Below are positions 1,493-39,557 of a stretch of DNA of 64,000 nucleotides, in pieces. Within the stretch, counting starts at the first letter, position 1; every line of letters starts with the position of its first letter. This stretch comes from Liolophura sinensis (lineage: Eukaryota; Mollusca; Polyplacophora; Chitonida; Chitonidae). The notes under the pieces were generated by a model. The model made no database searches and was not told where the DNA came from. It saw only the letters and a program-made list of their open reading frames with translations. Location: NCBI RefSeq assembly GCF_032854445.1, contig NC_088297.1, positions 23,137,127 through 23,201,126 of the forward strand, in the 5' to 3' direction. The position numbers were made by a program, and so were the translations under genes.

Positions 1493-3655
1493 CGCCCCGT
1501 GGAATACAGAGGCCCTAACGCGACAGAACACTTCCTCAGAGCTCTCCAACAGGAGGAGCGGGAAATCAAAAATGTTCTAGCCAACCTTATACCCATGAAT
1601 ATGACTCCCCAGGACTGGCAGGCCCACAACAATGTGTGTGAGAAGCCTCTAGGCGCCGATTCTGTGCGCGATCACTGCCATATCACCGGCAAGTACAGAG
1701 GCGCGGCCCATAACGCATGCAACCTAAAGTTGCGGCTGGGTCCCAAGACAGCCATACCAGTAGTCTTCCACAACCTACGGGGCTACGACGGGCACCTCCT
1801 GATGCAGGCCATAAAGTAAGGCGGAGGGCCGCATCTCCTGCATCCCCAACAGCACGGAAAAGTACATCTCCTTCTCACTGGGGCAGCTCCGCTTCATCGA
1901 CAGCATTCAATTCTTACCGACTTCCCTTGACAATCTGGTAGAGACCGGAGGCTTTCCACATCACAGCCCTGTATGAGCCCGCCGAAGAAAAATGAAAGCT
2001 ACTCATGCGTAAGGGTGTCTACCCCTGTGAGTATATGGACTCCTGGGAGCGCTTCGACGAGTCAAGCCTCCCACCCAAAGAGGCTTTCTACAGTAATCTC
2101 AAAGTCAGAGGCATTAGCGATGAAGACTACATCCACGCTCAACAGGTATGGAAGGTATTTGACTGCACCAATCTGGGAGACTACACAGGCCTTTACTGCT
2201 GCACAGACGTGCTCCTGTAGGCCGATGTGTTTGAGGCCTTCCGGAAGACGGCAGTATGGATTGGACCCTGCACACTACTTTACGAGCCCAGGTCTCTCGT
2301 GGGATGTGCTGTTCAAGAAGACCGGGGTAGAGCTGGAGCTGTTGACAGACTACAACCAACATCTCTTCATTGAGAAGGGGTTGCGCGGAGGTATCTTCAT
2401 GGTAAGTAAGCGATACGCCAAAGCCAATAATCCGCAGGTGGAGGGATACAACCCAGAAAGTCCAAACAGCTACATCCAATACCTAGACGCCAATACCTTC
2501 CAATGGGCGGCTTCCAGTGGGTAGATGACGCACGGCGTCTCGGCGAAACGATTGCTACCCACCCCCACGACAGTCCTTCAGGTTACATCCTCGAGGTCGA
2601 CCTAGAGTATCCGGCCGGCCTACATAACGCACATAACTGGTGGTCCAGAAGGAGTGGATGTCAGGCTATCAGCACGGCCTTCTCGGTAGGTCTACCGAGG
2701 TCGAAAAGCTGGTCCCCAACCTCCGCAACAAGGAACGGTACGTCCTGCACTACCGGAACCTACAGCTGTATCTATCTCTGGGAATGTTCACCGGGCCCTG
2801 AGATTCGCCCAGAGCCCTTGGATGGAACCCTATATCAGGATGAACACCAAGCTCCGAAAAACGGCAACGAGTAAATTCGAGAAGGACCTGTACAAGGTAA
2901 TGAACAACTCGGTCTTCGGAAAAATCATGGAGAACCTTCGGAAGCGTGTGGACGTCAAGCTGGTATGCTCTGGAGAAGACGATAAGATCCGGCGCTTGAT
3001 AGCCAGCCCGAGCTTCGCACGGGCGAACATATTTGATGATGACCTCGCAGCGTTTCAGATGCACAAGACCCGTCTAGTCCTAAACCGACCTATCTACGTG
3101 GGCATGAGCATTCTAGATCTCTCCAAGCACCTGATGTACGACTTCTACTACAACCACATGAAGGCCCAGTACGGAGAGCGCTGCCAGCTCCTCTACGCTG
3201 ACACGAATAGTTTGCTACTCGAGATTCAGACTGAGGATGTTTATAGGGATATGGCTGAGAATGCAAACCTGTACGACACCTCAGATTACCCACAAGACCA
3301 CCCCCTGCACAGCGTAGCAAATATGAAGGACAAGTGCGCGGGGCGGCAGATCGCCGAATGCATGAATCGTCTGCGCCCCAAGATGTACTCCATTCTGGAG
3401 GCAGGTGGAGCCAACATTAAGAAGGCCAAGGGCGTGAAAAAGGGAGTTGTGGAAAAGCGCACCCGCCATAAGCAGTACAAAGAGGCCCTCTTCGAGAAAA
3501 AGATCTTCCAACGCAGTATGGACGTGCTGCGATCAGAGCGCCACCATATCTATGGGCAGCACCTGAATAAGGTCTCACTGTCCCCCTTCGATAGTAAGCG
3601 CTGGATAGCCGAAGATTGTGTCCACACTTTGGCTCACGGCCATGCGCCTCCTTGA
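1493..3655 (+). pseudogene. Polinton DNA polymerase B, exonuclease to palm parts (copy 1)
   Basis: Separate reading-frame pieces show the zinc-motif/exonuclease segment (RDHCHITGKYRGAAHNACN, about 1660-1720) followed by a long palm/thumb segment from 2822 (MNNSVFGKIMEN near 2900, a YAD-type palm motif near 3200, KKAKGVKKGVV near 3420). The order is that of a protein-primed Polinton polymerase. It is broken into several pieces; the catalytic function is known for the family and not implied here. Confidence 0.85.
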
Positions 3656-5279: not shown

Positions 5280-8200
5280 ATGGCATCCGCGGAGAAGGCT
5301 TTGCCGTATCATGTGACCTGGGCGCCAAACGAAGCCTTGCTGAAACTTATGGAAAGAACAGGATACACCATATGGCATAAAAAAGGGCAAAGAAAGTACG
5401 GCGGTCCACCTCCCGACTGGGAAAGCCCGCCTCCTTTAAAGGGTTGCGAACTTTACATCGGAGGTATTCCAAGAGACTGTTATGAAGACGAGCTTGTTCC
5501 AGTATTTGAGAAGATAGGGAAGATTTACGAACTGAAACTCATAATGAGCTACCTCTCTGGATCCCATAGAGGATATGGATTTGTTATATACACTAATGAA
5601 GAACACGCGAATCAAGCGGTAAAGGAGCTTAACAACTACGAAATTCGTAAAGGCCAGCTCTTGGGTGTTTGCAAATCTGCCGTAAGTCATGTAATTTCCA
5701 CTATAGAAGCTTTATTGGTTGTCTCTTCGTTGCAAATTAAAACACATTTAATTGCCAATGTAGACAGCACCAGACGTCGGAAATATTGGTTGGTTAGTTG
5801 TAAAATTCACGAGTAGGTATCACAGTCCAAACAAATTTGACCAAATTTGAATTTATGTAAGCCGTTATTTGAAAAGTTATAATTGAACTAAAGTTTTTTG
5901 TATCAAAGGGGTATTTTGTGAGGGTGGATATGTGTAAAATGTTGCGTAACTTCTTGAAATTTCTTATCGTCTGCTCTTTCATTTTCTGTCACGAGAAGGT
6001 GGTGTGTGCGCGCGCGCGCGCAACATTTCTTACAACAAGTGATTTCTTTTGTGTGGGATGCTGCGGTAATAATTAATATGGTCACTTATGGCTTAAAAGC
6101 ACTGATGCATCGTCATCTTGTCCATTAATATTGTGCATATTTGTATGACTGGAATAATATTTATGTTGTGCATATTTGTATTACAGAGGAGAGTTTTGTA
6201 CGTGGGGAACCTTACGTCGAGAATTACAGAAGACAAAATTAGAGAGCTGTGCAGTCAAGTTGTGGGAAGAGACAATGTTGTGGAAAGAGTAAAGAAGATA
6301 AGAGGTTTTGCATTCATTCATTTTAGAGACAGAGATGATGCTATTATGGCCATGACTAAACTTAATGGTGAGAAAAATTATTTATTTTGGAGTTGTGTTG
6401 ATTGGTTTTGGATAAATACAAAATGCATTAATGGAAGTATATTTCTTCTATCGGTAGGCGAATGTAGTTTTTGTGTGCATTTATAGAGTGTGATATATTT
6501 CCATTCTGATAGTTCTGTTTCTGATAAGTAAAAGTTCATTTTCGTTTGTCAGTCGCATGTGGCACATTATTATTTTTTAACTAGTTTTTCACTTGATTGA
6601 TGTTTACAGAAAATTACATGATAGAATATCCACCAACATCTAAGGGAGAGTATTTGGAAAACATGCTAACTCGAGTAATTAAGATGAAACAGTGAATAAC
6701 TGACACATCGCTTGCCTATAGGATGTTTAATACTCCAACTACGTACAGGAAGTGGCTCACAATTATGGGACAGACTTGCATATATTTACAGAAGAGCACA
6801 TACAGTATAAATTCACACTTCAAAGCATAAGGTGTGGGCATTCTCTAGAATATTTGTTTGGATAAATTTCTGTATAAATTGGATTTTATGTTAGCATATT
6901 ATTAACTTAATATCATCCCTCATTCAACATGGATGGGAAGGTCTGCCAGCAACCTGTGAATGGTTGTGGGTTTCCACCAGGCTCTGCCTGGTTTCCTCAT
7001 GCTATAATGCTGTGATATATAAGTGATATATTCTTGAGTACAGCGTAAAAACGGGCCAATCAATAAATCATTCAGCATGAAAAGAAGCTGTTGAACATTA
7101 AATGATCAAATGTTTAAAAGAGGGGAGTTGTTTCAACAGTTACATGTAATAGGCTGAATATTGAACCCGAGCTCCCAGGACCATTTTGCCAGGAATTTTT
7201 TGAGAAAATAAGAAGTTTTCTTGGGAAAAACTCTAGGTAGACTGTATCTGGAACACTTTTTAACTGATGTGTAGCATTTGTACTACGTCCTCATTCTTTC
7301 AAGAAATAAAACTAAAGGAAGATCAAGGTGAGAAGGCATTATATAATAAGTCATATATATTTCTCTCTAGGAATGAATGTTGAAGGCACTTGCATTGAGG
7401 TTGTATGGGCAAAAGGAAGAAATCAGGTAAGAAATGATTTGGTCAATGTTACTGCCACATCGTGAAAGTCATCTCAAATGTGTAATTCAGGACAGCCCAG
7501 CGATCATCCTCTCCCATAGGTTAAGTTTGTCTGTAACATAGTATGTGAAGTAAACTGTGTTAAGTTGGAAGGGTTCAAATGTTTTCATATTGAGAGTTTG
7601 TGGAAGGTATTTGGTCGGGAACCGGGACCTGTCCACATTTTTCCCCCATCAGCTTTCTTTCACCATTGTAAACTCATCTGTCGTGTATGTGTGAAGTAAG
7701 CTTTGCATATAAACACCAAATTATTTATATATATTTATATCTGGTAAATAATTGAATTTTACTACTGATGAAAATTCTTTATTGCAGGCTAATCAGGACT
7801 GTCACTTGGATGAGGTTGATAGAGCATACAACAGAGGCCAGGAAGCATTGGAATCTTGGAAGCAGAAAGAAGTATCATATGTCAGGGTAAGAGTTCCTCA
7901 TATGGTAGGACAGGGGGCTCTGTTATGTCAGGGTAAGAGTTCCTCGTATGTTAAGGTAGGGGGTTCTCATATATCTGTAGGGGGTTCTCATATATGTGGG
8001 TAGGAGGTTCTCATATGTCAGGGTAAGAGTTCCTCATATGTCAGGGTAGTGGGCTCTGTTATATCAGGGTAAGAGTTCCTCGTATGTCAGGGTAGTTGGC
8101 TCTTTTATGTCAGGGTAAGAGTTCCTCATATGTTAAGGTAGGGGGTTCTCATATATCTGGGTAGGAGGTTCTCATATGTCAGGGTAAGAGTTCCTCATAT

Positions 8201-11200: not shown

Positions 11201-12862
11201 AAAGACAAACAAATGCTTCACAGCCCAAGCTCTACCCTTTTTCACTTATGATACATCATTTTATAAGTGGCCATTGTATGCTTTGATTTCTTCTTTCTTT
11301 CCTGAACCAGCTTTGCTTCTTGAAAGTTAATTTAAGAAAGTAAGAGCTATCTCATTTTACATGTTTGTAACAGTATATGAAAAGTATAAAAAAACTTCTT
11401 TACTGGATAATATGTAATAAGACATGCTGCAAAAACTTAATTGCTGAAAATTGCTATTCATAGCTGAGCTGTTTGCCGTTATGTAAGCACTTGTGACATG
11501 CATCAGGTATTCTGTGTCTTAGCAACTCGTTTGAAGAATGAATGGTTAAATACTCACATACATACATGCATGTGGTTACCCAAGTATATTTTGAATGAAT
11601 ATTAGCCAGGAAAGTAACTATTTGCATAACTAGAATTGTCAGAGTTTATTGTTTTGTGCTGCAGCCCTAGAGTACATTGGCCCACCATATCCTTACACCC
11701 AGCCCAGCTATGTCACCCACCCCGACCCACCTTCCAACAGATCATGTGAAAAGCCATGGATGGACCTAAGGTACATGTATATTGATCCGGCACTTCAATC
11801 TCTAAGACAATGGATATACATGTATAACTTGTACTTGATTAGGGCCTGGACACTAAACACCTGCCTAAACACGGCTCGCGTGAGAAAGGTTTGTATTATA
11901 ATGTGCCATAATAAAGACCGCATATTGACCGGTCATGTTTTGTGCTATTAATTGAATGGCTGAAGTATTTGCGTCTTATAATATTGTTATTGATCGCCAA
12001 AAGTTTTCAAAACCAAGGTGCGTAAAAGCGGCCTTGCAGGAAAGTCAAAGCGCCGGAGCGACATCAGTGAGTCGCCAAACTTGGGGTTTAAGAAGCAAAT
12101 TCGGAGCGAAGCTGTTGTTTCTTCACACACAGAAAAGTTATCATTTTGTCCAAGTATGTACCGAATAGTTTTGTTTGGTCGATTACATCTTGTGATCCCT
12201 GATCATCTGAACTACTGTGTGTAACTGACAGCCGTGTACATGGGCTTGACAGGCAAACATGACTTTTCACAAGGGTTTAATTCACCCGGCACAGAGAGTC
12301 ATGTTTCACCAGATTGCTTCTATCTCCTGAAGTCTCAAAATGGCCGCCGTCGTATAAGTGAAATATTCTTGAGTACAGCGTAAAACACCAATCAAATAAA
12401 TAAATAAATAAATAAATAAATCTCAGAATGGTTTGGATATAATGTTCTAGCCATTCTCTTGGTCCGCAGTTGTTTTGCTATGTGGTTTGAATCTTAAAGC
12501 ATTGATGATAAGGCTCAAACATGTTTAGTATGGAGCGAAACATTTAGGACAGTTTTAACAAGGGGAATAAATCTGGGGGTGTAGTATCATGGTATAATGA
12601 GTTACTTCCCTTTGAATCTTATGGAGCAAAACATAGGAATGTCAGAGCTTTAATTCAATCAGGCGTTACTATATCACTGTAAAATGTTGAACATCTGGAC
12701 ATTGCTTTGGTTACTTAACCAGCTTCAATTTATGTTCTTTCTTATTTCAGTTTAAACATGGCAACTTCAAGATATCACTTGTTCGATCAGCCAGAAGAAA
12801 TTGACTTCCTAGCCGTGTTCCTTGGAGCAGGAGGCGGAACCTGTGAGGACAATGGAAAATAA
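5280..12862 (+). CDS. RBM46/A1CF/RBM47/DND1-family RNA-binding protein, 10 coding exons
   Basis: Exons read: 5280-5681, 6187-6367, 7371-7426, 7788-7886, 8924-8997, 10035-10128, 10642-10749, 11038-11173, 11665-11770, 12751-12862. All junctions have GT-AG and matching phases, giving 1368 nt or 455 residues. Residues 1-134 hold the family leader ([13 protein letters not shown]) and RRM1 (RNP2 LYIGGI, RNP1 RGYGFVIY). Residues 135-213 hold a second RRM ([14 protein letters not shown]) that matches RRM3 of RBM46, including VERVKK. Residues 214-300 are Tyr/Pro/Gly-rich. Residues about 301-383 match the family's dsRNA-binding domain ([17 protein letters not shown], then [18 protein letters not shown]). 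RRM2 is absent. The length equals vertebrate RBM46 minus one RRM, and the layout resembles DND1. Family members bind mRNA and control stability, splicing or editing. The donor of exon 6 (GTGTGT) is the weakest call. Confidence 0.88.
6931..7070 (+). repeat. tRNA-derived SINE, 3' part
   Basis: The central and tail domains of the window's common SINE lie in intron 2 (AAGGTCTGCCAGCAACCTG ... TTCTTGAGTACAGCGTAAA), diverged from the other copies. Confidence 0.7.
7874..8575 (+). repeat. Minisatellite carrying repeated splice donors, intron 4
   Basis: About 23-bp monomers (TATGTCAGGGTAAGAGTTCC type) are arranged in a higher-order unit near 116 bp. The first monomer overlaps the end of exon 4 and its donor site (AGG|GTAAGA at 7884-7892). 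The motif CAGGGTAAGAG recurs 11 times, near 7884, 7929, 8022, 8068, 8111, 8180, 8226, 8296, 8340, 8386 and 8457. Other monomers carry GGTAGTGGG or GGTAGGGGG in place of the donor. Confidence 0.85.
11956..12168 (+). other. Open stretch within intron 9, possible alternative exon
   Basis: An ATG at 11956 opens a frame of 70 codons. A neighbouring frame over 12018-12150 reads a basic, Ser-rich segment ([12 protein letters not shown]) and runs into a good donor-like AAGTATGT near 12153. I could not join either in frame to the Nanos-Myc ORF with visible acceptors, so this is only a candidate. Confidence 0.2.
12341..12420 (+). repeat. SINE tail fragment
   Basis: The 3' end of the common SINE (TATAAGTGAAATATTCTTGA, then an AAAT repeat tail) lies in intron 9. 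Confidence 0.75.
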
Positions 12863-13343
12863 AAGAATCAAGAGAAAGGTCAATCCTACAAAACACACCT
12901 TTTGTGTGTTATGCAAGAATAATGGCGAGATGCTGTCGGTGTATGGTATGCACGTTTTGCAGGATGACTCCGGTCGTGTGACATGTCCAATCCTTTGGCG
13001 TTACACCTGTCCTATATGTGGGGCAGTCGGGGATAACGCACACACCGTCAAATACTGTCCCAACAACGTGAACCGAGAAAGGCAACTAAGGAATTACTTG
13101 AAACAAAGCTTCTTGGAATTAAAAGACGCAGTTCCAGCGCTCATACAACAGGAAAGGGTACCAAGAGTGGTTATATTGAAAAAAGCCACAGACCACATTC
13201 ATGATTTAACTACGAAGCAAAATGTTATGTTGACAGAACTGCAAATACAGAGAGAGCGAATTAGCAGCTTATTGGAAAGCTGCGGTTACTACAGTGTTGA
13301 AAGCTTGTACATTACCTGTCGTCGTGCCCTTGTGTTCATGTGA
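12852..13343 (+). CDS. Nanos zinc finger fused to a Myc-type bHLH-leucine zipper
   Basis: The ORF has 163 residues from the first ATG; the frame stays open a little upstream without an ATG. Residues 18-45 form C-X2-C-X12-H-X10-C (C18, C21, H34, C45). Residues 53-69 form C-X2-C-X7-H-X4-C (C53, C56, H64, C69; GDNAHTVKYCP). That is the full Nanos-type double finger with all eight ligands, which in Nanos binds RNA and works with Pumilio. Directly after it, residues 75-142 match Myc rather than Max: a basic segment RERQLRN, helix 1 LKQSFLELKDAVPAL, then VPRVVILKKATDHI, close to the Myc signature PKVVILKKAT. A short zipper follows, with a/d residues I116, L119, Q123, M126, L130, Q133, I137 and L140. 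The Myc basic-region His appears replaced by Asn, while Glu and the nearby Arg remain. There is no Myc transactivation domain. The start overlaps the stop of the upstream gene by 11 nt. Confidence 0.85.
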   Translation: MENKRIKRKVNPTKHTFCVLCKNNGEMLSVYGMHVLQDDSGRVTCPILWRYTCPICGAVGDNAHTVKYCPNNVNRERQLRNYLKQSFLELKDAVPALIQQERVPRVVILKKATDHIHDLTTKQNVMLTELQIQRERISSLLESCGYYSVESLYITCRRALVFM

Positions 13344-13975
13344 TTGTCATTGCAAGACGGAGAGGCGTGAAGCGATCACAGTTTGATACTTGGTTACCAT
13401 TATTACCATGCCTTGCTGCCCAGCTTACCACAAGTGGTAGGGGTTTTACCACTAACAGGACTGACTGATTGTTTCATTATGTTGTGAACTCGTTTTGATT
13501 TTCATTTTGCAGAGGTATATATTTCCATTATTGAAGAGAAGTTGTTCTTTATGGTGCAATTTCATACATGCCCTACTTGGGTATTAGTGCTAACATTAAC
13601 TGTATGGGACTTCGCTGCTCGCATTGATTTAACTGGAACTCTTTATCATCAAGCATTTGAAAGTTGTTGTTTTTGTTTGTTTCCATTTTCTTGCTGTTAA
13701 AAGATTCATCTTTTTTTTTACTATTTTTAATCCATTTAAGAAAACAGCTTGCATGACGTTTTCATTTTGCAAGAAGACTAGTTTTTGTGTAGCATTTTAT
13801 TTTTTTTTCTTACGACAAACAGTGGCTGTGACTTTTTTTGAGTGCGAGACCCATGTACTGTGTACAGTTGACGTTTGTGTTGGAAAACCATTGTTGTATT
13901 TTAAATGGCTTGCTGTGAGCATTTCATTCCATTTTTGTCTCATGTTGAGGGTCTGTCCCTGTGAGTGTACATATC

Positions 13976-14497
13976 CAGGCAGCGAAATTTGGCGCGAACG
14001 AAACCGTCGGTCGCGCAACGGTTACGTGCGGTTCAATTTGGCTAACCGGAAAATCGGTTAGGCCAACTGTCCAACGAGAACGTCCTTAGAGTCAGTGTGC
14101 ATTAGGTAACTACAGATAAACTGGACTGAACAGCTTTCATAATCACAACGCGGCCAGTATGGCAACGCGTCTAAAAATAGAAACATCGATTTCAGCCACA
14201 GCCAGCTGCCTGTGCTGGTCACATGGAAATGTAATCATTCATATATGCTTTACAGGCTTTGAGATAATACTCAAATTATTTATTTTGACTTATCTTTTCA
14301 CGATCACGCAAGTAAATAAAACAAGGTTACCTTTTCATGTACATGTAGTTTAACTGCTACTCCAGCCCAAATTAGTCGAGTCTACCGTACAGATTGATGG
14401 AACCCTTACGGGACCTCACCGGCTGCGTTCTGATTTAGAGCACAGGCCTGTGACGCATAGGCCTGTGACGTCAAGGTCTCTCTTGGCCCTGTAGCGA

Positions 14498-14555
<58 letters not shown>

Positions 14556-15038
14556 CTGTGGTAAGACTCACACCACGTGCGTTGGAAACTGCGTTAATTA
14601 TCAGTAATCAGGGATACCAAACTCACTCCCCAATACCGTAATGACACTTACTGGAAGTACTTAATGTTGGACTGGGCATATTGCAAACATATAAGCCTGT
14701 ATAACGGAATTTCACGTAAAAATGTGCCACAGGAGTCAAGTACCAACCAGGCAACACACAACGTTGAAACACCGTGTGAGTGTAAAATTTCTCTTTCTTT
14801 TGTTCACCAACCTTACGGTATGAGCTGCTAGATATAGAAAAGAAAAACAAATATAACATTGAGCTGAATACTTCTATTAATGATCCAGAATGATGCCTGA
14901 AACATAAACCACGTAAACAATTAGCGTAACTGATCGGGTTGATAAACATACGTGGCGTAACCGAATGATCGGTTAGGCGAGGCGGAAAAGACGTAACCGA
15001 TTTCTGGGTTTCGCCGGCAGGCGAAATTTCGCTGCCTG
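13976..15038. mobile_element. Non-autonomous DNA transposon with 6-bp target-site duplication
   Basis: The ends are inverted copies: CAGGCAGCGAAATTT at 13976-13990 and its complement ending at 15038. Direct repeats CATATC flank both ends (13970-13975 and 15039-15044). Inside are a TA microsatellite (14501-14553) and partly inverted sub-terminal segments around GGTTACG and CGGTTAGGC. It holds no transposase gene. I do not assign the superfamily. Confidence 0.8.
14501..14553. repeat. TA microsatellite
   Basis: An uninterrupted run of about 26 TA units lies within the small transposon. Confidence 0.95.
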
Positions 15039-15323
15039 CATATCTGTGCATTTATCACCATTACTGGCCTCTGATTACAGATGTTTAGGAAACCACATCT
15101 GTACTAATAGAGCCAGACATTTTGACACCTGCTTTGACCTGTCTTTTCAAAGTCTAATTAGCTGTTCAGTGCAACCATTTATCATTTATTTTCAATATCA
15201 TGTATTTATCATTTACACGTATGGGTTCTGTTAGGTTCCCCATAGCAAGTACTGCAAGTTTCTGTTGAAGATATTAGTATGTTTCGGTATATCCTTTCGT
15301 ATTTCAGATTTTTGATAGAAAAG

Positions 15324-15352
15324 AATAAAACATTGAAAAAAAAAAAAAAAAA
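15324..15352 (+). promoter_or_regulatory. Polyadenylation signal followed by genomic A17
   Basis: AATAAA at 15324-15329 is followed six bases later by 17 uninterrupted A residues. It is the only strong signal I see in the stretch between the small transposon and the next SINE. The genomic A run could mark the end of a retroposed sequence instead. Confidence 0.45.
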
Positions 15353-15438
15353 GAAATCTTTAATATAACCTGGTAGTTGTTTTCTCCTTCATGGTCATTT
15401 GGTTGTCTTGTATATATGTGTTAAGATTAGTTGATAAA

Positions 15439-15782
15439 GAGTGAGTGAGTGAGTGCTTGGGGTTTAACGTCGTACTCAACAATTTTTCAGTCATATGACG
15501 ACGAAGGAATCATTAGGGTGCATGCACGTGTAATGTGCCTCCTTGTTGCAGGACGGATTTCCACCGCTCTTTTATTTAGTGCTGCATCACTGAGACGACG
15601 TACCGAAGGCAAGTAAGCCGCCCCGCCCGAGCCATTATACTGATACGGGTCAACCAGTCGTTGCACTATCCCCTTCATGCTGAACGCCAAGCGAGGAAGT
15701 TACAACTTCCTCTTTTAAAGTCTTAGGTGTGACTCGACCAAGGATTGATCCTGGATCTACCGGTCCCGAAGCGGACGCTCTA
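15439..15782 (-). repeat. tRNA-derived SINE, second family
   Basis: Read on the minus strand, it starts with a tRNA-like head and ends in TTGTTGAGTACGACGTTAAA and a CTCA/CACT repeat tail. This differs from the more common SINE of the window. Confidence 0.7.
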
Positions 15783-15799
15783 AGTTGATAAAGAATAAT

Positions 15800-16385
15800 T
15801 GGATTTAACCGTTTAAGAAATGGCTGTTACATATCTTGCTTAAATATGTGGATGTTGGTGAAAATACAGATGCTGAAAATATGTGCGAAATACCATCACA
15901 TTGATCTCCTCCAAGTTTCTTATAAGCTTCGAGATTTTCTGATCCAAGAGTAGACAACTGGGTCGTCAGTGGACCCTTGAGTTCATTCCAGCCTATTATC
16001 CAACCTTTTGACGTAGCCGGTCAGCCAGCCTGACAAACCACATACTACAGTACACAAGGCAATGCCCTACTCTGCTCTGTTCTGCTCAGTGTTGGCGCGA
16101 ACGGAGACAGAGCGCGGACTCAACGACACCCCAGACTCTGCTCCTCAAAACGACAAGTTCGCAACGCTCTATATTACTGGGGTTTTTGATCGAGAGTGCA
16201 CTTTTGGCGGGGTGTTACTAAAAACCATTTCTTTTATGGCCATATAAGTTCTATTTGTGCTTCGACCGAGATTTATACTTCTGATCTGGAAATTCACAGA
16301 ATTGTGCTGGGCTGAAATTTGCACTTTCTTATCGTACCTTTCTGGGACCGATTCTCCGCCTTACTGTACCGGGTGCTTTATCTGC
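15800..16385. other. Stretch without recognised gene
   Basis: I see no convincing coding region, RNA gene or repeat between the SINE and the outer integrase. The left end of the outer Polinton-like remnant may lie here but no terminal repeat is visible. Confidence 0.4.
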
Positions 16386-17446
16386 TTAACAATTCGGGGA
16401 ATCAGCTTCCGGCCAGCTTTCGATTTTCTGACAAAGTAAAATAAACAAATTTCGGTCTAGCAATTGTTCCCCGTTCAAATCCTCCAGTGTGTACACAGCA
16501 GGCTGTCGAGGGTGGGAACGAACAATGCGGAACATTTCCGTGCTCCAATTCGGGAGGTATGATTTTTCGAATTTCCCTTTCACTTTACTGATACGCACTA
16601 GATCACCGGCCCGATAACGGTGGACCGAGCGTTTGGTTGTGGGTGAACCGTACAAGACTTGCCGGACTTCCTTCTGGTTCTGGGAGGTGACGTCGATAGG
16701 GGCTCGTCGTATGCTTCGGTGGTAGGCTTGATTGTAACCGCGGACCAGCGCCGGTAAGGCGTCCAGGTATCGCCGAGTGTTGTGAGCGGTGAAATATTTG
16801 TACATGCGACCTTTCAAAGTGCGGTTGAACCGTTCTACCACGCAGGCTTTGGTTTCGTTAAACGTGTGAAAGAAAAACACCCCGTTGTCCTTTAAAAAGG
16901 CTTGAAACGGTCTGTTCAGAAACTCTTCCCCCTCGTCCGTTTGCAGGTACAACGGTCGGCGACCCGTCTTGAAAATCTGTTGAAACGCCTCGATCAAACG
17001 AGCCCCGGTTTTGGCCCGGAGTGGCATCACCCAGGCGTACTTGGAGAGGACATCGATGCAGGTCAGTAGGTAACGGCTGTTGTCATTCTCTTTGGCGAAC
17101 GCTGCCATGTCGACCGGGTCCGCCTGCCACTGACTGTCAATATCCCCAACCACCACTTGCTACGCGGGTAATGGCGGCGTGCAGGTCGGTGGAGTGTGTA
17201 CGTGCCCTGCTGAGCCAGCCAAGCCGACACACGGGTTCGACTCACTTTGAGTCCCCGTTGTCGAGCTGCCTTGAGCAAGGGTTGAACCCCGCTGTAAACC
17301 GCTGGACTGTCCGGGTTATAATACAAAGCATGGAGAGCAGTATCGATCGGGTTTAAACCACAACCCGGCGTCACTGATTTTTTTTTCGCCGTCCGTTGAT
17401 GCGATTGACGCGAGTGGTGCGAGTGAGGCGAGGCATAGTCCGACAC
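16386..17446 (-). pseudogene. Integrase of the outer Polinton-like remnant
   Basis: Minus-strand frames give an N-terminal segment (LYYNPDSPAVYSGVQPLLK, about 17240-17340) and a retroviral-type integrase core with a C-terminal chromo-like region (CIDVLSKYAWVMPLR, TDEGEEFLN, KACVVERFNRTLKGRM, then YRAGDLVRISKVKGKFEKSY). This matches integrases of Polintons and adintoviruses rather than LTR elements. It differs clearly from the inner element's integrase, so two lineages are present. Fossil; a small number of breaks. Confidence 0.75.
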
Positions 17447-17547
17447 GTCGTCCTTGCTGCTTGGTGTCTGTGAGTAATGAGTGAACCCGCCCCAGACCGC
17501 CTACATATAGTATAGTAGAGTATAGTATAGTATCCATGTTTGGGTGT

Positions 17548-17662
17548 AGTAGTATACAGAATAGGAGTTCTGGACCACCCTCCCCCTGGGGCCCTCCCCA
17601 GAACAAAATAGAGGCCCCAGCCCCCAGCGGAGGGTCTGATGGCTATCGAAATTTCTTATTAG
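17548..17662. repeat. Left terminal inverted repeat of Polinton copy 2
   Basis: This is the inverted counterpart of 27344-27459. Part of its inner edge (GGCTATCGAAATTTC) recurs near 18117 and 18191, so the subterminal region has been partly duplicated. Confidence 0.9.
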
Positions 17663-17692
17663 AGAGACACCGCCACTAGGCATACGGTAATA

Positions 17693-18432
17693 TTGCACAA
17701 CGGCGCGTACAATGAGGAATCACCAAAAAAAGCACGAGCACTACGGGAGGAGTATGAGGCGCTCTTAGGCGTGCGGCCTAGGTACCCACGGTCACGCATT
17801 GTCTTGGAAGAATTGCAGGGGTTCCTCGACAGGTATAAAACGACAGGGAAGGAAGACAACATGCCAAAGAGTCTCAATAATTGCCGGTGGCTTCTCATCG
17901 GCTCTACAGAGCTCTGTGGTAAGAGTTGTCTGGGGGAGTACTGCGGCTTCCACCTATACCGTCTGCGGAAGGGTCCTAGCACCCAGCCATGTATTGGCTG
18001 TGGTCGGGGAGTTAAAACCTGATTTCAGCTTTGCGGGGCCTGCGGATATAATAATGTCCAGACGCGTGAAAGGCAGCAGAGGTACAAGGCTTTCTTGGAC
18101 AAGTTCAAACAGCTGGTGGCTATCGAAATTTCATATTAGAGAGACACCACCACAAGGCATGTGATGATATTGCACAACGACGAATACAAACGGCTATCGA
18201 AATTTCATATTGGATAGGCACCGCCACTAGGCATACAATGAAACATCATCAAAAAGCACAAGCACTACGGGAGGAGTTTGAGACGCTCCTAGGTGTGCGG
18301 CCCAAGTACCCACGGTCCCGCATTGCCTTGAAAGAACTGCAGGGGATCCTCTACAGGTATAAAACGGCTGTGGCTGAGTTGAAGCGGCTGCAAGACAGCA
18401 AGAACTCCCGAAGTAACGAGGAGTTGAAGTAA
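17693..18432 (+). pseudogene. Polinton Cys-rich N-terminal region (copy 2)
   Basis: The frame at 17693-18022 contains a coiled segment (ALREEYEALLGVRPRYP) and a Cys-rich segment (CRWLLIGSTELCGKSC, then CIGCGRG) that looks zinc-binding. The coiled segment occurs again at 18238-18420. I place it as the leader of the polymerase block by position only. Fossil. Confidence 0.45.
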
Positions 18433-18462
18433 GACGTCAAGAACCCCCTCAGTAACGAGGAG

Positions 18463-20020
18463 TTGAAGCAAGACGTCAAGAACCTCCTCAGTAACGAGGA
18501 GTTGGATGAATTGCTAGGCGAAAAGAAACTAGAATTCATTAACACCGGCAGGGCTATAAGGAATCTCCTCCGGGCCTGGCATATGGGCGTACCCGAAGGC
18601 ATTTGGACGGACCCAGTAGCCTTCTTAGAAGAAATTCGACCTATTATTCGCCAGAAGCTAGAAGAAGAGATCCTAGCACTCAACGGGGTTCAATTCCAAC
18701 TAGGCCTCAGGGTTCAGTTGCGAAAGAGCAACGCCGATGGCAGTGAAGAGTTTACCAGCCCAGTACTTCACAACTAACAGGAGGCCCTCTTAGAGGCCGG
18801 TGACATTGACGGGGCTCTAGAAAATGCGTTCCCCACCATCCAGGAGGTGCTAGAAAAATGGACACAGCGAGGGTCAGGGTGGGTTGTCAATAACGTGCAA
18901 ACACTCTGGCTTGACATTGCAAGGTATCAGCCACTGAGAGGCGGGTCCTACATCCCCCTACCCGCAGCTGTGAGTAACAAGAAAGCAGTCATCGGTGTGA
19001 AGAACAAAGACGACGACTGCCTCCGATGGGCACTCCGGTCTGCCTTATTTCCAGCCGCCGGGCACCCTCATAGACCAACAAAGTACCCCACCAATGATGG
19101 TCTTGACTTTGGGGGAATCGACACCCCCACGCCCATCTCCTAAAGTGGAGGAAAAGAACGACCTCGCCATCAACGTGTTCGGGTGGGACAAGGGCGTGAT
19201 CGTGCACCGCCTCAGCAAGAAGCTCGGCGACATGCCGCGAATCAATCTGCTGCTGATTGGGAAGGCAGGCAATTTCCATTATACGTGGATAAAAGACCTC
19301 AACCGTCTCCTGTTCCAAGAAAGTAAGGCACACCATTGCAAACACCTCTGCGAGCGCTGCCTACACGGTTACACAAGGGAGGATCTTCTCAAGGCGCATA
19401 AGCCGGAAGGTGGAAATCCCCCAGGAGGGGAAAAACAAGTTCACCTTTCAGAACCACCACAAACAGCTACCGGCTCCGTTCATCATATATGCCGACTTCG
19501 AGGCTCTGACCAGAAAGGTTGAAGGCCCGCCGCCGTCACCTACAGAGAGCAGCACTCAAAAGACTCAGCACCACGAGCCCTGCAGTTACTGCTATGTTGT
19601 GGTGCGTTGCGACGGCCGCACAAAACGCCCCGTGGAATACAGAGGCCCTAACGCGACGGAACACTTCCTCAGAGCTCTCCAACAGGAGGAGCGGGAAATC
19701 AAAAATGTCCTAGCCAACCCTATAGCCATGAATGCGCGGGGCGGCAGATCGCCGAATGCATGAATCGTCTGCGCCCCAAGATGTACTCCATTCTGGAGGC
19801 AGGTGGAGCCAACATTAAGAAGGCCAAGGGCGTGAAAAAGGGAGTTGTGGCCCTCTTCGAGAAAAAGATCTTCCGACACGGTATGGACGTGCTGCGATCA
19901 GAGCGCCACCATATCTATGGGCAGCACTTGAATAAGTTCTCACTGTCCCCCTTCGATAGTAAGCGCTGGATCGCCGAATATGGTTTCCACACCTTGGCTT
20001 ATGGCTATGCGCCTCCTTGA
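18463..20020 (+). pseudogene. Polinton DNA polymerase B region (copy 2)
   Basis: Pieces carry the same conserved blocks as copy 1: SGWVVNNVQTLWLDIARYQP, PLPAAVSNKKAVIGVKN, a QNHHKQLPAPFIIYADFEA exonuclease segment near 19450-19510, and the C-terminal GANIKKAKGVKKGVV segment near 19810. A 39-bp unit is repeated about three times near 18418-18500. The family copies the element by protein-primed replication. Broken fossil with less of the palm region than copy 1. Confidence 0.8.
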
Positions 20021-20043
20021 CGGCAGGATGGGACTTCGAGGAA

Positions 20044-20622
20044 CTACCGTGGAACGCCATCCGGGGGAAGTTGAGTATCAGGGGGCACTATAAGCAACTC
20101 CTCACGAACGAATCCCCATCGTGGACCATCCGACGTATCGTCCAGATAGAACAGCAGTCCAATAGGCCTTGTGACAGAGCGCCCAAGCCGATATATCTCT
20201 AGAGACCAGACAGGATCGGTCGCGCGACGGCGGTCGCCCTCCAACTCTCCAGGCTGATAGAGATAACGAACGCCAACACCCTCAGGGATCTTCCGCTCAT
20301 TAAGTCCAACAGAACGACCTGGAACCGTCGAGAAAGGCCTATGGGGCACCCCTTTTGCCTTGATGGCGTCTTTTTGCTTTTTACCGATCAGTCTCGTTGT
20401 CTCGTTATTCAGAGCGGCCACAACAGATGGCAGCCGAGCCACCCATTCAATAGACCGGTGTTTGGGAGGAAGGCGCATCTCCTTGGCGTACTGATGTCCA
20501 AAGAGCCGCTCAGCCAGAGTACGGTTGAAACGCTCCACTATGCCTTGGTCTCGGTAGATATCCACGCGGCCTCGGCGGACTGTGACATCGTGTTTGGCCA
20601 GCAGTTGGCTCACCGCACCCAT
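20044..20622 (-). pseudogene. Polinton integrase, C-terminal half (copy 2)
   Basis: The minus-strand frame reads DQGIVERFNRTLAERLFGHQ, WVARLPSVVAALNN and a C-terminal SLEIYRLGRSVT segment, as in Polinton integrases. It is convergent with the polymerase. Only the C-terminal half of the core is recognisable. Confidence 0.75.
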
Positions 20623-20643
20623 AAACTCGCGCCCAGGGTCAAC

Positions 20644-20961
20644 TTATAGAAGCTTCGGCCATCGAAGGGGAGCCCTCTTGTAAATGCAAGAGAGAGCATC
20701 AGCGACTTCTTTGGAATCTTTAGTAGCCAGAGGTTCCGCCTCCTTGTAGCAAGAAGCGACCTCAGGGTTAGACAGTATCCATCGCCGTCGGTACGCCTCG
20801 TTATGCTTAAGAGTGGGGCACAGGATCACAATGTGATGAAAGAAACCGCGGAAAGGACCCTCAAGCAGGTCCAGCACGAAGACTGTTTTGCCGCAGTTCG
20901 TCTGCCCACAGATAATTGCGCAGTGGGCGTCATCAATAAAGCGCGTTAACGAATCTACCAT
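20644..20961 (-). pseudogene. Polinton packaging ATPase, N-terminal part (copy 2)
   Basis: The frame carries a Walker A-type loop (GQTNCGKT) followed by VFVLDLLEGPFRGFFHHIV and ILCPTLKHNEAY, typical of the FtsK/HerA-type genome-packaging ATPase of Polintons. It is shorter than the family norm. Fossil. Confidence 0.7.
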
Positions 20962-21036
20962 TCTGGATGTGCAGCATTGCGTCCATAATCACATAGAGAT
21001 ATAGTCTACCCACAGATAATCGCGCAGTGGGCGTCA

Positions 21037-22392
21037 TCAATAAAGCGCGTTAACGAATCTACCATTCTGGATGTGCAGCATTGCGTCCATAATAACATAG
21101 AGATATACGTTCAACACGCCGGGATCTTCTCTCTCTTTTGTCACCTGTATCGTAATCCCCTCGCTGGCGTTCTGAACGCGCCTCCCACTGCCATGCAGCT
21201 CGTCATCGTCGCTTGGCCGAAGGTCAAGACAGAAGGCGTGCTTGTGGGTCAAGAACTCTTCATGGGAGACGTCTGCCAGGCCTAAGTCTTTTACGACCCG
21301 GCCACCTCAGGGTCCCGCTTCTTAAGGGGTGAGCTGGCGAAGAACCTCTGGACCTCGCCCCATTGCTGGTACGCCCGCATGCCCTGGCTGTACAGCTGAT
21401 TGTGGATCCCTTCTATTGTGAATTCTACTTTGGTGATCTTCGGGTTGTAGAAGGATTCCGACCTCCTCCCCCACGGGGTTCTTTTAGCCTCGAACAGCAT
21501 GAGGATGCCCTTCATTGCTCTCGCTGGAGTGTTCAGGTTTATGTTCCAGAGAGTATCAGACTTGTCCTTAACAAACTTTCGGTGGCGGAGGACGCGATCA
21601 TACAGAATAGAGACGCCCCCTGAAAACTGGGTGCGGATCTGTCTAGCGAGCTCCTCATCGTTGACCATATCGAACTCCAGGCTGATGTTGTCGATGGTGT
21701 AAGTCGTGGTAGAATGGCATGTGGCCATCTAGAAGCTCAAAGTCTAGCGGGATGTGGAACCGGCTGGCAAAGGCGCGAGCGATGGCTTTTTCTCCAGCAT
21801 TGTCGTCACTTGCGTCCTCCGCTCCGACTCGAAGTTTAGGCATGTTTTCGCTGCCGATGCCTTGGTAGGCCGCATTCCTCCGTTCGTTTTTGGTCAGCCA
21901 GAAGTCGCCGTAGCAATGAAACACATCATAGTCGTCGATAGACATTACCTCATTCCCGCTTATTCTGATCGTGGTTTTCTTGACTACTGGGCGTCCGAGA
22001 TTCCCGACCACTGTGGCGTTCGGGTGGGATGAATTGATCGTGATCGAGAAGGCCAAGCGCACGGTGCTGGGCACAATGACGTCATTTGGGCCGAGGTTGG
22101 GGAAGCGGACCAAGAGTTGTTGATTCTGGTCGATCGTACTCGGGTTGTTGGCGACGACTAAGGACTGCCGTACACTTGTGTCCGTATGCATCCATTGTGT
22201 GTATTGAAGGTATACCTTGCAATGCTCAATACGAGGATTATGGTATACTTTGACGTTGATGATCCGTTCGAAGCCCAAGAGGACAATGCCCAAGAGGACT
22301 ACGCCAAAGACGACGTCGTCGAACAGACCCCTCTCTTTACAGGTGATGTTGTTCCCAAGGCAGCAATATTGGGTACGATCTACGAAGCCCAA
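21037..22392 (-). pseudogene. Polinton major capsid protein region (copy 2)
   Basis: Three minus-strand pieces match the double jelly-roll major capsid protein of Polintons: an N-terminal part (NPSTIDQNQQLLVRFPNLGP, then ISGNEVMSIDDYDVF), a middle part (FYNPKITKVEFTIEGIHNQL, then YSQGMRAYQQW) and a C-terminal part (HAFCLDLRPSDDDELHGSGR, then LYVIMDAMLHIQNGRF). The product would be the main shell protein. Fossil; a few breaks. Confidence 0.75.
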
Positions 22393-23695
22393 AAACCAAG
22401 GTTGGTCCAGAACGCCGTGATGTCTTATTACAAAATCATGGCGAAGGATGCTTGGTATCCCGACTCCCCCCCCCCCCCCCCCTCACTCCGTTTTAGCGAA
22501 GAAAATAAGTTTATACTTGTCAATGGGCGTCTGCGACTCGTGAATTACCCAGAACTGGAACTCACCAACGAAAAGAATGGCGAACCGCTAGCCCTCACAA
22601 CAATCGCCCGGAGAGGAGGAGGGAGAAGGACTGTTACGAGTGTGGATGGGCTGGGTTTTGTAGACTGGAATGGAAAAAGCAGAGTAAAAAACAGAAAACA
22701 GCTATCGTTGCATCCGCAGCAGTTGCAGCCCTGGAGACAGCGAGTTCAGAACTCTGTGCCGCGGCCGCCGAGGCAGATACCTTGGAGCTGAAGGATTTAA
22801 ACCAAGCAGCAAAAAAGGTCGCTGATGCAGTCCACACACTGGAAACAAGCTTGACGGATAGTGAGGTCGGGCGGGTTATTGAAACGATGAACAACACTCC
22901 TCTTCCCATACAAGAGATGAACGACCCTCCTCTTCCCATGGGAGAACTTCTGGGGCTTAACAAGGCACTGCAGACCTTGGAAGGCGAACACGCGTATAAC
23001 AACGCCAGGCTGTCAAAATTAGATATGGAAATCGCAGAAGAAAAACAGAAGTTGGGAGAGGCCCCTAATGATGATAATAATAAAGACTTGCGGAGGCGGA
23101 TCGAAGCCCGGATAAAACATCTCGAGGACGATAGGGTGAACCGCCTCGAAGCAACCTCTTTAACGGCTGAAGCCCTGCGTACGCAAATACACGCATCAAG
23201 CAGACGATCGATCGCATCCTACACAAGGATACCACTCTGGCCGAGCGCGTCCGCACCCTCTTCCGGGAGCAGGGAATAACAGTGGTCTCCATTCTCACGG
23301 CATTTGGGATGGCGATCTCGACACTGGGGCTAGCGATAAAGTTGGCGCTGACTGGCGGGTCCGGCGGGGGCATCCAGCCAACACCACCTCCACCCGACGG
23401 GCGTGGTCTCAAAGAATGGGTGAAAAACCATCTCCAGTCCCTGGCGCGCGGCCTTGGCAAGCTGGCTGGGAAGGCTGCCGCTGCGATTCCGGGTATTATT
23501 GGCAGTATCGTGTCCTGGCTACTGAACCTTCTCGGGAAAGCAGCTGGGTGGCTGGCCGATAATGTCTGGGCTCTAGTCATCGCAGTAGGTAGCCTAATGC
23601 TCGTGGCTGTTCGCAATTATTTAACGCATAGTCGCAGAAGCAGTAAGCCGATACCAACCCCAGCGACGACGATGGCTGTCTTCTCCGCATCGTGA
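22186..23695 (+). pseudogene. Polinton coiled-coil protein with C-terminal hydrophobic region (copy 2)
   Basis: Frames read SLRFSEENKFILVNGRLRLV and ALTTIARRGGGRRT, then a long coiled coil (22782-23200), a hydrophobic stretch (VVSILTAFGMAISTLGLAI), a PPPP-rich linker and an Ala/Gly/Leu-rich C-terminus (LLNLLGKAAGWLADNVWALV). Similar proteins occur with coral and mollusc Polintons, from memory. The role is unknown to me; it may be membrane-active or structural. Fossil. Confidence 0.55.
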
Positions 23696-24966
23696 TTCTT
23701 TAGGGGTTCGGCGGCGGTGGGTGGTGGGACGCTTTCTTGTGGCTCAACGAGGGAAGGTGGTGGGACGCGTTCTTGCAGCTTAACGTGGGAAGGTGGTGGG
23801 ATGCTTTCTTGTGGCTTAACGATTCCGTGGAAAGGTGCGCGCTTGTGCAAAGTGGGCGGTACTTTAGCGTTCACACCCTCATTGGCGCCTAGCTTCTGGT
23901 CCTCTGTGGCCACGACGATTTTGTTGTTGTAGTTCGCCACATGGCCGATCTGCAGAAGCATGTCGCTGGGGGCCATACATAGGCCTATGCCATACAGAAA
24001 GTCTACAGCGCTCCCGGCATACTGTAGCACGTTCTGGTAGCGTTTGATAGCAGACGGAAGGTCGATCGAAGAGGAAATAGCGTCTTCAACGTTCGCGGCA
24101 AACTGTTTTTGCGCGTCGAAGGCTGTGCCCGTGCCTAGAATACGCGCCCTTGTTTGCGCTTGGGCGCCTAGAAAAGCCCACACGTATGTCCGGATGGAAT
24201 CGTTTAGGCGCTCTACGCCCGGCTGCGTGAATCCTTGGGATTTGTCGGCAATGAGCGACGCCCAAGCCTCCTCGGCGTCCTGCTAGATGTAGTCGACGTG
24301 GAGCGCTGTAGGCTTTCTAGAGAACGACATCCTGCTCTGATCGAAGGTCCCATCGCCAACGGGGCTGTAACCCGTTCTCGTGATATAGCAATATGCCACT
24401 CCGAGGCCGTGATTCACCCCCCTGCGCCTCCAGTCTGTGTGCTTATCTACGCGGAATTCCCTACAAATCCTCTCATAGGCCCTCTCGTCGTGGGGGTTTT
24501 TGAATGCCGCCCACGCTCTGTCTTGCGGCAGTTGGGCCTGGATCTCTTCCAAGATCCGCCTAACTTGGTAATACACATGGAACGTGTACAGAGCCCTTAT
24601 TTGTTTGTCGGGGGCGAGAAGATGGTCTTTTACAGAGACGCCGCAGCCCGTGGTTGCGCACCAGACCGCGAAGTTCACTTGGTTCTGCCAGAATTGCATA
24701 GGATTGGTGTTCCAGGCCCGAACAATGTCATTGCTGGTTATCTGTGGCAGCCGGTACTTGGCCAACATATCTGTGAACTGGACTGGAAAGGCCTTCTTTT
24801 CATCGATGTAGATGTCAACTCGCGTGAGCTGCTCTGCGTGGGTTTGGACACTATGAAATGCCCCGGCCTTGTAAGTGGCCTCTCCATTGAACCTGTAAGC
24901 CTCGCTGTTCATCGTGGCTAAAATGTTCATCACATTGTCTGACATTCTAAACGGGGCACAGCACAC
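23617..24966 (-). pseudogene. Polinton protein with Pro-rich repeats and C-terminal membrane segment (copy 2)
   Basis: The first part (24966 to 24283) is a globular region (NVMNILATMNSEAYRFNGEA, DKQIRALYTFHVYYQVRRIL). The second (24183 to 23617) has an Ala-rich helix, three near-repeats of the type PQESVPPP and a C-terminal hydrophobic helix (VVAGVGIGLLLLRL). I read it as one gene region by position and orientation only. Unknown role. Fossil. Confidence 0.45.
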
Positions 24967-37320: not shown

Positions 37321-39557
37321 AACTGAACAAAAAGACAAGTCCGTTTTCAGGGTGTCTCCAAACAGAGCTTCCAGCTTAGTTGATGTGTATATAATGCATG
37401 AAAGTCATGTAAATAAAAAATACCAATTTTACGATGCAAAAATTATAAAAAAATAAAAATAAAAATAAACATGAACTGTGTTAAAAATGTAAATATATAT
37501 TGAAATATGTATATAATTATTTCCAAGCTGAAGCAATCGATTTCCGTAAAAAATGTTTTTTTTGTTTTTTTTTTTGTTACAGTGATTCTGCTGAATACGT
37601 GACGGTTGACCCTGTTATAACCTTTGATGGAGACCCTTCCTCTGCAACAACAGAATCTCTTGGGGAAGGATGTTCCAGTAACAATACCACAGATGAAGAT
37701 ATTGCTCGTCCATATCCGATGGAGGCCTCTACGATTGCTGACGACTCTCAGAAAGATCCAGATGTTGCTGACTCCTGCGTGGACGATGACTCCTCCACTG
37801 ATGAATCTGCGTCCCTGGGTGAACATCTTAAAAAGGGACGGTCTCGTAAACGAGCACGAGATCCAAGTCAATGGAAAGCTAATGTACGGAAGAGGCTATG
37901 CCAGGAAGGGAAACCCTACCTTTCTGTTAGGAAAAAGATGGTAACAGGGAGAGAAATAAAGAATTTGAAAAACTGTCATACGTCTTGCAGGTTTAAATGC
38001 ATGGAAAACATTAGCCAGGAAGATAGGGTTCAGATTCATGATGCTTATTACCAGTTGAATCAAAACCGTAAATATGATTTCATTGCTACAACTACAAGTT
38101 ACGGTAAGACAGACAGGCCCACTGGAAAGGGCCCCTCCCGGAGGAAGAAATCAATTAGATATTTCTTCTTCCTTTCCGAGAAGAAAATGCGTGTTTGCAA
38201 GCCATACTATCTGGGCACATTATGTATTAGTCAAAAGGTCATATACAATGTCCATGAGAAAAAAGACAAAACTGGTACACCAAAAGCAGACGGAAGAGGC
38301 AAGCATGCCAAGAAAGTCACACATGAAGAGGTTGTTCAGGGAGTAAAAAATCATATCCTGTCTTTTCCGGCTGTTGAGTCGCACTATTGTCGTGCAAAAA
38401 CAGAAAAACGCTACTTGGAATCGAACTTGAATGTAACAAAAATGTACGACCTCTATGTGGAAAAGTGTAATGTAGACAAAACGGCTGCTGTAAAGCTCTC
38501 TTTCTATCGTCATACTTTCAATTCAATGATTCCAGCTCTTGATTTCCATAAGCCTAAGTCTGACAGATGCGACAAATGTGAGATATATGACACTGCCAAA
38601 AACAACAACCTCTTAACTGACACGCTACAGCAATCTCACCAAGCCCATGTGAACGAAAAGGAAGCCATGCGTGAAGAAAGGCGAACTGATCGCAACAACA
38701 AAGATAAGCTCGTTGTTTCCTTTGACCTGCAAAATGTGATCACATGCCCAAAGGCTGAAATAAGCTCGTTCTTCTACAGGAGAAAGTTAAACATGTACAA
38801 CTTAACAGGATATGATTCCATTTCTAAAACTGGTTACTGTGCTGTTTGGTGTGAGACAGTAAGTGGGCGTTCTGCCAATGACATAGCGAGTGCGCTGATT
38901 CAAATACTTGAAAGAGTCGTTGTTAATCACAAAGGGATGGTCAAACACATCACCACATGGAGTGATAGCTGTGTGCCGCAGAACAGAAACAGTGTGATTG
39001 CGTTTGCTGTCGCAGAGTTTCTCAACAGACATCCAGATATTGAAACAGTGACCATGAAATATTGCACACCCAGTCATTCTGCAGTGCAAGAGATTGACAA
39101 CATCCATAGTGTCTTGGAAAAGGTGATGTCTGTAGCTGAATTTTACTCACCAGTGTCAGCTATTCGAATCATGCTAAAGGCTAGGAGAAAATGTCCATAC
39201 ACTGTCATTCAGATGAGGGGTGACCACTTTAAGGACTACCAAACTTGTGCCAAATCTCTTTCCTACACTAAGATCCCTTTCTCGAAAGTAACCTCATTGA
39301 AGCTGTCGTTTGAAACACCATTTCAGGTCCAGTACAAAACCTCCCAGCAATCTGAGAGATTTGAAGTTGGGGATCTAAATCATTTAAGGAGGGGAAGGCA
39401 AAACCGGGTAATGAGTTTTGATAATCTGCGGCCAAAAGCTCTGGATAGTGGGCAGTTTCATAAAATCCCCCAAGCCAAAGTAGCTGATCTCAAGGAAATG
39501 ATGAAATTCATGCCCCTGGTAGACAGAGAATATTACAAAGCAACATTCCGTATCTGA
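37089..39557 (+). CDS. Putative DDE/RNase H-like transposase, 2 exons
   Basis: Exon 1 is 37089-37174 and exon 2 is 37583-39557; donor AG|GTAAGG and acceptor TTACAG|T give matching phases and 686 residues. The N-terminal region is acidic, then basic (KKGRSRKRARD). A Cys-containing segment (KSDRCDKCEIYD) precedes the catalytic-type blocks: VVSFDLQNV, then TTWSDSCVPQNRN, then PSHSAVQEIDNIHSVLEK. The two Asp and a following acidic residue are candidates for the catalytic triad. I recall similar proteins in cnidarians and arthropods as uncharacterised (DUF7869-like), but I am not sure of the superfamily. The frame is uninterrupted, so the element may have moved recently. Confidence 0.75.

Follow-up and report, generated by a model that had tools for sequence, protein, structure and literature searches.

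A 163-codon open reading frame (ORF) of the chiton Liolophura sinensis, in which a complete Nanos double zinc finger runs into a Myc-type helix-loop-helix (HLH), is a real chimera of traceable origin. Most probably (at about 90% in our estimate) it is one member of a small group of defunct chimeric pseudogenes. The window, i.e. the whole stretch of DNA that was analyzed (64,000 nucleotides), lies at G000:C3:23137127-23201126 in an assembly analyzed here as 609,464,459 bases in 632 contigs; the publication on this assembly gives 632 scaffolds and 609,495,693 bases, obtained with 14x HiFi and Omni-C data (PMC11068029). It also names public RNA-seq data of the species from digestive gland, foot, gill, gonad and heart (BioProject PRJNA973839). 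The species was first named L. japonica, and the name was corrected to L. sinensis (PMC12441733).

Domain composition of the open reading frame

The residual ORF at window 12852-13343 (plus strand), delimited by translation, Pfam and reading-frame comparison, was confirmed to be open over 163 codons. The original prediction had assigned each half to its family, and both halves pass the Pfam cut-offs: zf-nanos is complete over residues 18-71 (83 bits, E = 1.8e-23; cut-off 27) and HLH covers residues 74-120 (38.6 bits, E = 9.5e-10; cut-off 20.7). The prediction thereby survives the HMM search that had been named as one way to refute it. In sequence searches, the best solved relative of the finger half was Nanos (5kl1, 1.4e-17), and that of the HLH half was Myc (1nkp, 7e-11, aligned over residues 67-140); Max scored less well (best 1e-5). 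The Pfam, solved-relative and blastn matches together rule out chance domain matches. All eight predicted zinc ligands were read from the translation (C18, C21, H34, C45, C53, C56, H64 and C69), and their spacing, C-2-C-12-H-10-C-7-C-2-C-7-H-4-C, is that of the Nanos family.

The remaining regions of both parent proteins are largely missing. In agreement with the predicted lack of the Myc activation domain, PF01056 (the N-terminal Myc region) was absent among the six Pfam matches of the ORF, and all that remains of the N-terminal Myc boxes is approximately the first 27 codons of exon 2, which are out of frame. The Nanos N-terminal region was likewise not found upstream of the fingers; dispersed repeats elsewhere in the window aside, nanos homology is confined to 12839-13077. 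Aligned by eye, the basic region (NNVNRERQLRN, against HNVLERKRRN in Myc) carries the predicted Asn in place of His and a Leu in place of one Arg, while the Glu and the other Arg are retained; we take the His, Glu and Arg of the Myc basic region to be its E-box contacts. The HLH is followed by what remains of a Myc zipper, shorter than had been claimed: its end is lost after residue 136 through a frame slip at 13258/13259, of which residues 137-163 are the product, and Myc's own end (QLIGKLRLLQC, with the stop at 13298-13300) is still there in another frame. Similarly, the frame is open as described, but its ATG at 12852 (A at -3, G at +4) is not the original start, which is the Myc ATG at 12758.

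Parent genes and breakpoints

Separate nanos and myc genes, whose existence the original prediction had left to be checked, are present elsewhere in the genome. The canonical myc on C7 is intact (exon starts near 26247199 and 26248477), and its frame is open through exon 2 (MATSRNHLFHRPEECDSFQPCFFEHETDEEFY...EDIWDKFELLPTPP...), a GT donor, an AG acceptor and an exon 3 ending in QLKRKLQLLQC. A genome search with the HLH part retrieved seven places, six window-like and one the canonical myc exon on C7. The nanos donor at C1:24540161 (L001) is a gene with a single open frame, and it shares with the chimera the motif MENKRIKRK just ahead of the fingers.

Alignment with these parents resolved the window copy into successive segments, all on the plus strand. 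Positions 11925-12757 comprise the last part of Myc intron 1, its splice acceptor (AG at 12749-12750) and the leader of exon 2; this segment is homologous to the C7 myc locus, to which blastn matched 11925-12334 (80.9%), 12421-12543 (82.1%) and 12620-12838 (89.7%); that the intron is intron 1 would follow from the acceptor. The start of Myc exon 2 (MATSR...) extends, by alignment and frames, over 12758-12838, up to what we take to be the first Myc homology box, and is broken by a 2-base deletion at 12804/12805, which puts the ATG at 12758 out of frame with the fingers, and, in the frame of the fingers, by a TAG at 12810-12812. The 239-bp Nanos double zinc finger segment follows at 12839-13077, with 92.5% identity to the C1 gene. 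At 13077-13300 (blastn and alignment) lies the part of Myc exon 3 that begins midway through the basic region and runs to the former stop, with a 1-base deletion at 13258/13259 and, in the former frame, a nonsense TAG at 13262-13264; it is continued by the Myc 3'UTR at 13301-13836, assigned by homology to myc. In blastn, 13077-13836 is 83.7% identical to myc, with 42 differences in 528 compared columns over 13300-13836. Further downstream, over 13851-16015, blastn detected pieces of the myc locus at 13851-13981, 15039-15448, 15783-15917 and 15921-16015, with other sequence between them.

With the canonical Myc of the same genome, the chimera has in common, by homology, the splice acceptor, the beginning of exon 2, the HLH-zipper and the 3'UTR. 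It lacks the bulk of exon 2, including the box EDIWDKFELLPTPP, together with the next intron, the acidic stretch and the first part of the basic region. Compared with the C1 nanos gene, the chimera holds the finger region but neither the N-terminal part nor the tail past the last cysteine. In total, approximately 1.72 kb of a duplicated myc, from about codon 27 of exon 2 to the exon-3 basic region, is replaced by nanos sequence; both nanos/myc joints are in frame and, by eye, show 0-1 base of microhomology or overlap. The 163-codon ORF is evidently what remains of the ancestral frame between its first and second frame breaks.

We propose that the finger patch entered the myc copy during double-strand break repair, with DNA copied or captured from nanos. 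Copies of the chimera subsequently spread along C3 by duplication. Chimeric pseudogenes that arise by partial gene duplication together with a patch from another gene form a general class, which the present family resembles in its intact parents, common joints and neutral decay of duplicates, and from which it differs in pairing a Nanos finger with a Myc HLH-zipper.

Seven damaged copies on C3

Seven copies of the chimera were found, all on C3 and each with disabling changes relative to the intact parents. The 5' joint is common to all six copies in the alignment and the 3' joint to the five that keep the region; the seventh, a partial copy found by DNA search (C3:2921379-2921792), has the 5' joint in common with the others. 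A single origin for all copies would be the simplest account. The joints common to the copies also refute an assembly artefact that joined nanos and myc reads, the probability of which is negligible given seven copies, several of them well diverged, with a common 5' joint (and 3' joint where it survives) in a HiFi assembly.

The window copy and those at C3:27.34 Mb and C3:27.44 Mb have stretches of more than 12 kb in common at 98% and carry the same lesions, namely a 2-base loss before the fingers, the nonsense change at 12810, a 1-base loss within the zipper and, beyond the zipper, a further nonsense change. The window ORF remains open over 163 codons and retains the eight ligands, and the other two ORFs do likewise, which speaks against the pseudogene reading; the 27.34-Mb copy carries a Gly-to-Arg change in a finger and the 27.44-Mb copy an Arg-to-Cys change, and in the alignment the three ORFs differ by five replacement changes and one silent change. 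The C3:4.540-Mb copy is open throughout, with ATG changed to ATT and the ligand losses C21Y and C69Y. The C3:4.546-Mb copy combines the same ATT with an acceptor changed from AG to AA, the losses C56Y and C69Y, one frameshift and one nonsense change. The C3:2.958-Mb copy keeps ATG and frame, and deletions of 33 and 42 bases have left it without most of the basic region and, with C56 changed to Arg, without four of the eight ligands (C45, C53 and C69 being deleted). The partial C3:2.921-Mb copy retains ATG, frame and seven of the eight ligands, with other sequence before the last cysteine and no HLH-zipper; because it lacks the 2-base deletion, this deletion is specific to the window lineage. 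In a maximum-likelihood tree of six copies and myc, rooted on myc, the two 4.54-Mb copies group together, as do the 2.958-Mb copy and the window group. Read against the alignment, with the window group counted once and the seventh copy left out, four of seven coding indels are multiples of three, a point against the pseudogene reading.

Selection on the sequence

We estimated dN/dS (NG86) over the ancestral frame, leaving out codons that were gapped or held a stop in either sequence, and the seventh copy (2.921 Mb) stood outside these counts. Against a composite parent of myc exon 2, nanos and myc exon 3, which also carries the parents' own-branch changes, the window gave 1.09 (bootstrap 0.59-2.38; 11.5 silent and 46.5 replacement changes over 176 codons), or 0.90 (0.48-2.09) from MENK on, i.e. 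in the ORF region; the 4.540-Mb copy gave 0.74 (0.38-1.93), or 0.69 (0.34-1.72) from MENK on, the 4.546-Mb copy 1.23 (0.61-3.18) and the 2.958-Mb copy 1.20 (0.62-3.5). For comparison, five paralogous pairs of intact nanos genes from the same genome, the first three drawn among the same three genes, gave 0.19, 0.22, 0.20, 0.32 and 0.25. The two 4.54-Mb copies compared with each other gave 0.57 (13.2 silent, 29.8 replacement). We see in these values no sign of purifying selection on the protein, and weak constraint would be compatible with the wide bootstrap ranges and the pair at 0.57. In the ancestral frame, nonsense changes numbered two in the window, none in the 4.540-Mb copy, one in the 4.546-Mb copy and none in the 2.958-Mb copy, i.e. 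three over four lineages against approximately 4-5 expected neutrally (interpolated; the neutral simulation yielded means of 0.78 for 20 substitutions and 1.87 for 50), which fits neutrality and falls short of proof.

The same data bear on the notion that the ancestral fusion, a 181-codon protein running from the first Myc box through the Nanos fingers to the Myc HLH-zipper, worked for a while and was later lost. Each joint preserves the frame, and a majority sequence taken over copies and parents reads through without interruption between the Myc ATG and the Myc stop; however, two in-frame joints would arise by chance in about 1 of 9 cases, and the codons changed alike in the four lineages and not in the parents comprise 10 replacement and 2 silent changes, so the stem shows no sign of constraint either. 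We regard such a past function as quite unlikely.

In pairs with the window, the pooled coding parts are not better conserved than intron and UTR, and the nanos segment is intermediate. Between the window and the 2.958-Mb copy, differences amount to 12.3% in the exon-2 part, 5.7% in the nanos part and 15.3% in the HLH part, against 4.3-4.6% in intron and upstream sequence and 7.1% in the UTR. The HLH-zipper part (31 of 202) thereby exceeds both upstream plus intron sequence (33 of 738; Fisher 7e-7) and the UTR (38 of 535; Fisher 0.001), and the excess is located at window 13078-13290 compared with C3:2957925. The first 27 codons are well preserved in the two 4.54-Mb copies, with 2 differences from myc in 80-83 compared positions, which also sits uneasily with plain decay. 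Plain drift does not explain the excess of the HLH part over its flanks, which could reflect conversion between the flanks, mutation bias or fast selected change. That the fast HLH change reflects selection rather than decay, and that the fusion of a Nanos RNA-binding finger with a Max-binding HLH-zipper once served as a functional regulator, or still does so in one lineage, seems very unlikely to us.

Prospects for a protein product

It had been suggested that the chimera brings Max or DNA to Nanos-bound RNA or acts as a dominant partner. A related possibility is a short working protein started at 12852, in which the Nanos fingers, the HLH and a shortened zipper would bind Max without DNA contact, as a dominant-negative partner or a tether of Max to RNA. 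Such a product would be compatible with the open frame, the eight ligands, the HLH score above the Pfam cut-off and the A at -3 and G at +4 of its ATG, but dN/dS in the ORF region is near 1, the end of the zipper is replaced after residue 136, an out-of-frame start lies upstream, the sister copy at 2.921 Mb has no HLH, and the 27.34- and 27.44-Mb copies carry the substitutions described above. We consider this product very unlikely. The suggested working protein finds no support, because the seven copies found all carry disabling changes, the ORF lies between two frameshifts and two nonsense changes, and the protein shows no sign of selection.

Translation of the ORF would also face an obstacle within any transcript. 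An upstream ORF of 34 codons (12758-12862, plus strand; read from the frames) begins at the original Myc ATG, which likewise has A at -3 and G at +4, and overlaps the ATG at 12852 in a different frame, so a scanning ribosome would meet it first. If the window copy is transcribed, ribosomes would be expected to start mostly at 12758 and make a 34-residue peptide, and the 163-codon ORF would be translated poorly because that ATG comes first in another frame. We also considered whether an upstream exon might be spliced to the ORF by way of the acceptor at 12750, and rejected this, since stops at 12753 and 12810 close the finger frame.

Max is known to be sequestered by Omomyc and by truncated forms of Myc. 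If the chimeric protein were made, its fingers could fold and bind RNA, its HLH with the shortened zipper could pair with Max, and E-box contact would be impaired by the two basic-region substitutions (Asn for His, Leu for one Arg). With its DNA contact so weakened, the HLH-zipper would then act like these Max-sequestering forms. Unlike them, the chimera has lost its zipper end by frameshift, and its sequence gives no indication of selection. Under the pseudogene reading, a protein function was most likely never fixed, since the sequence drifts at dN/dS of about 1 and different essential parts are missing from different lineages.

No protein with both domains was seen among 29 matches, nor among the best 120 of 1233 listed (8000 candidates scored), a weak negative given that these 120 included no Liolophura, the best identity to its canonical Myc being 89% and the species poorly covered. 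No report of a Nanos-Myc fusion was found in a partial coverage of the literature judged by titles. The domain combination may be new, while the chimeric duplicated pseudogene as a kind is already known. The family offers a clean case in which the middle part of a regulator gene was replaced by a patch from another gene, giving a new in-frame domain combination that was then duplicated and decayed independently in its copies. It is also a warning that two well-conserved domains in one open frame do not prove the existence of a protein. To our knowledge, a germline RNA-binding finger has not been linked to the Myc-Max network before; a working relative in another chiton, if one existed, would make that link.

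Other features of the genome and the window

The genome contains further nanos-like genes. A tandem array at G000:C11:17950687-18196922 comprises at least 141 copies, all on the minus strand and often 1,672-1,673 bases apart (141 of the 150 zf-nanos matches listed, with 150 of 204 candidates scored). An open frame of at least 200 codons is present in 127 of the 141 listed copies, and the proteins of five neighboring copies (L004-L008) differ at one residue. The copy number depends on the HiFi assembly, at 14x according to its publication (PMC11068029). No report of this array was found in literature judged by titles, with partial coverage, and it may merit more attention. A second nanos-like cluster, at G000:C1:59615001-59655000, holds at least six genes with open frames on both strands, and four pairs tested gave dN/dS of 0.19-0.32; two further short nanos-like genes, at C3:3981198 and C6:24224829, each stand singly and gave 0.25 when compared.

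Within the window, two RRM exons (Pfam RRM_1) lie at 5280-6486, in a gene that presumably resembles the A1CF/RBM46 group. Its first RRM exon has 36 genome matches on many contigs, 19 of which (the window's included) are near full length without stops; to judge by these matches, it is a dispersed multi-copy gene. A 685-codon open frame at 37500-39557 (plus strand) had no Pfam match at 0.001. Window 1973-3655 (plus strand) and 16386-24966 (minus strand) may represent what is left of a large element, a DNA transposon or something virus-like, that surrounds the chimera. The neighboring ORFs give the impression of being polymerase-like and capsid-like, and those scanned against Pfam gave no match at 0.001. 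An rve integrase was matched at 16386-17156 (Pfam, 2e-10), and parts of the putative element recur, in another order, near the 27.34- and 27.44-Mb copies.
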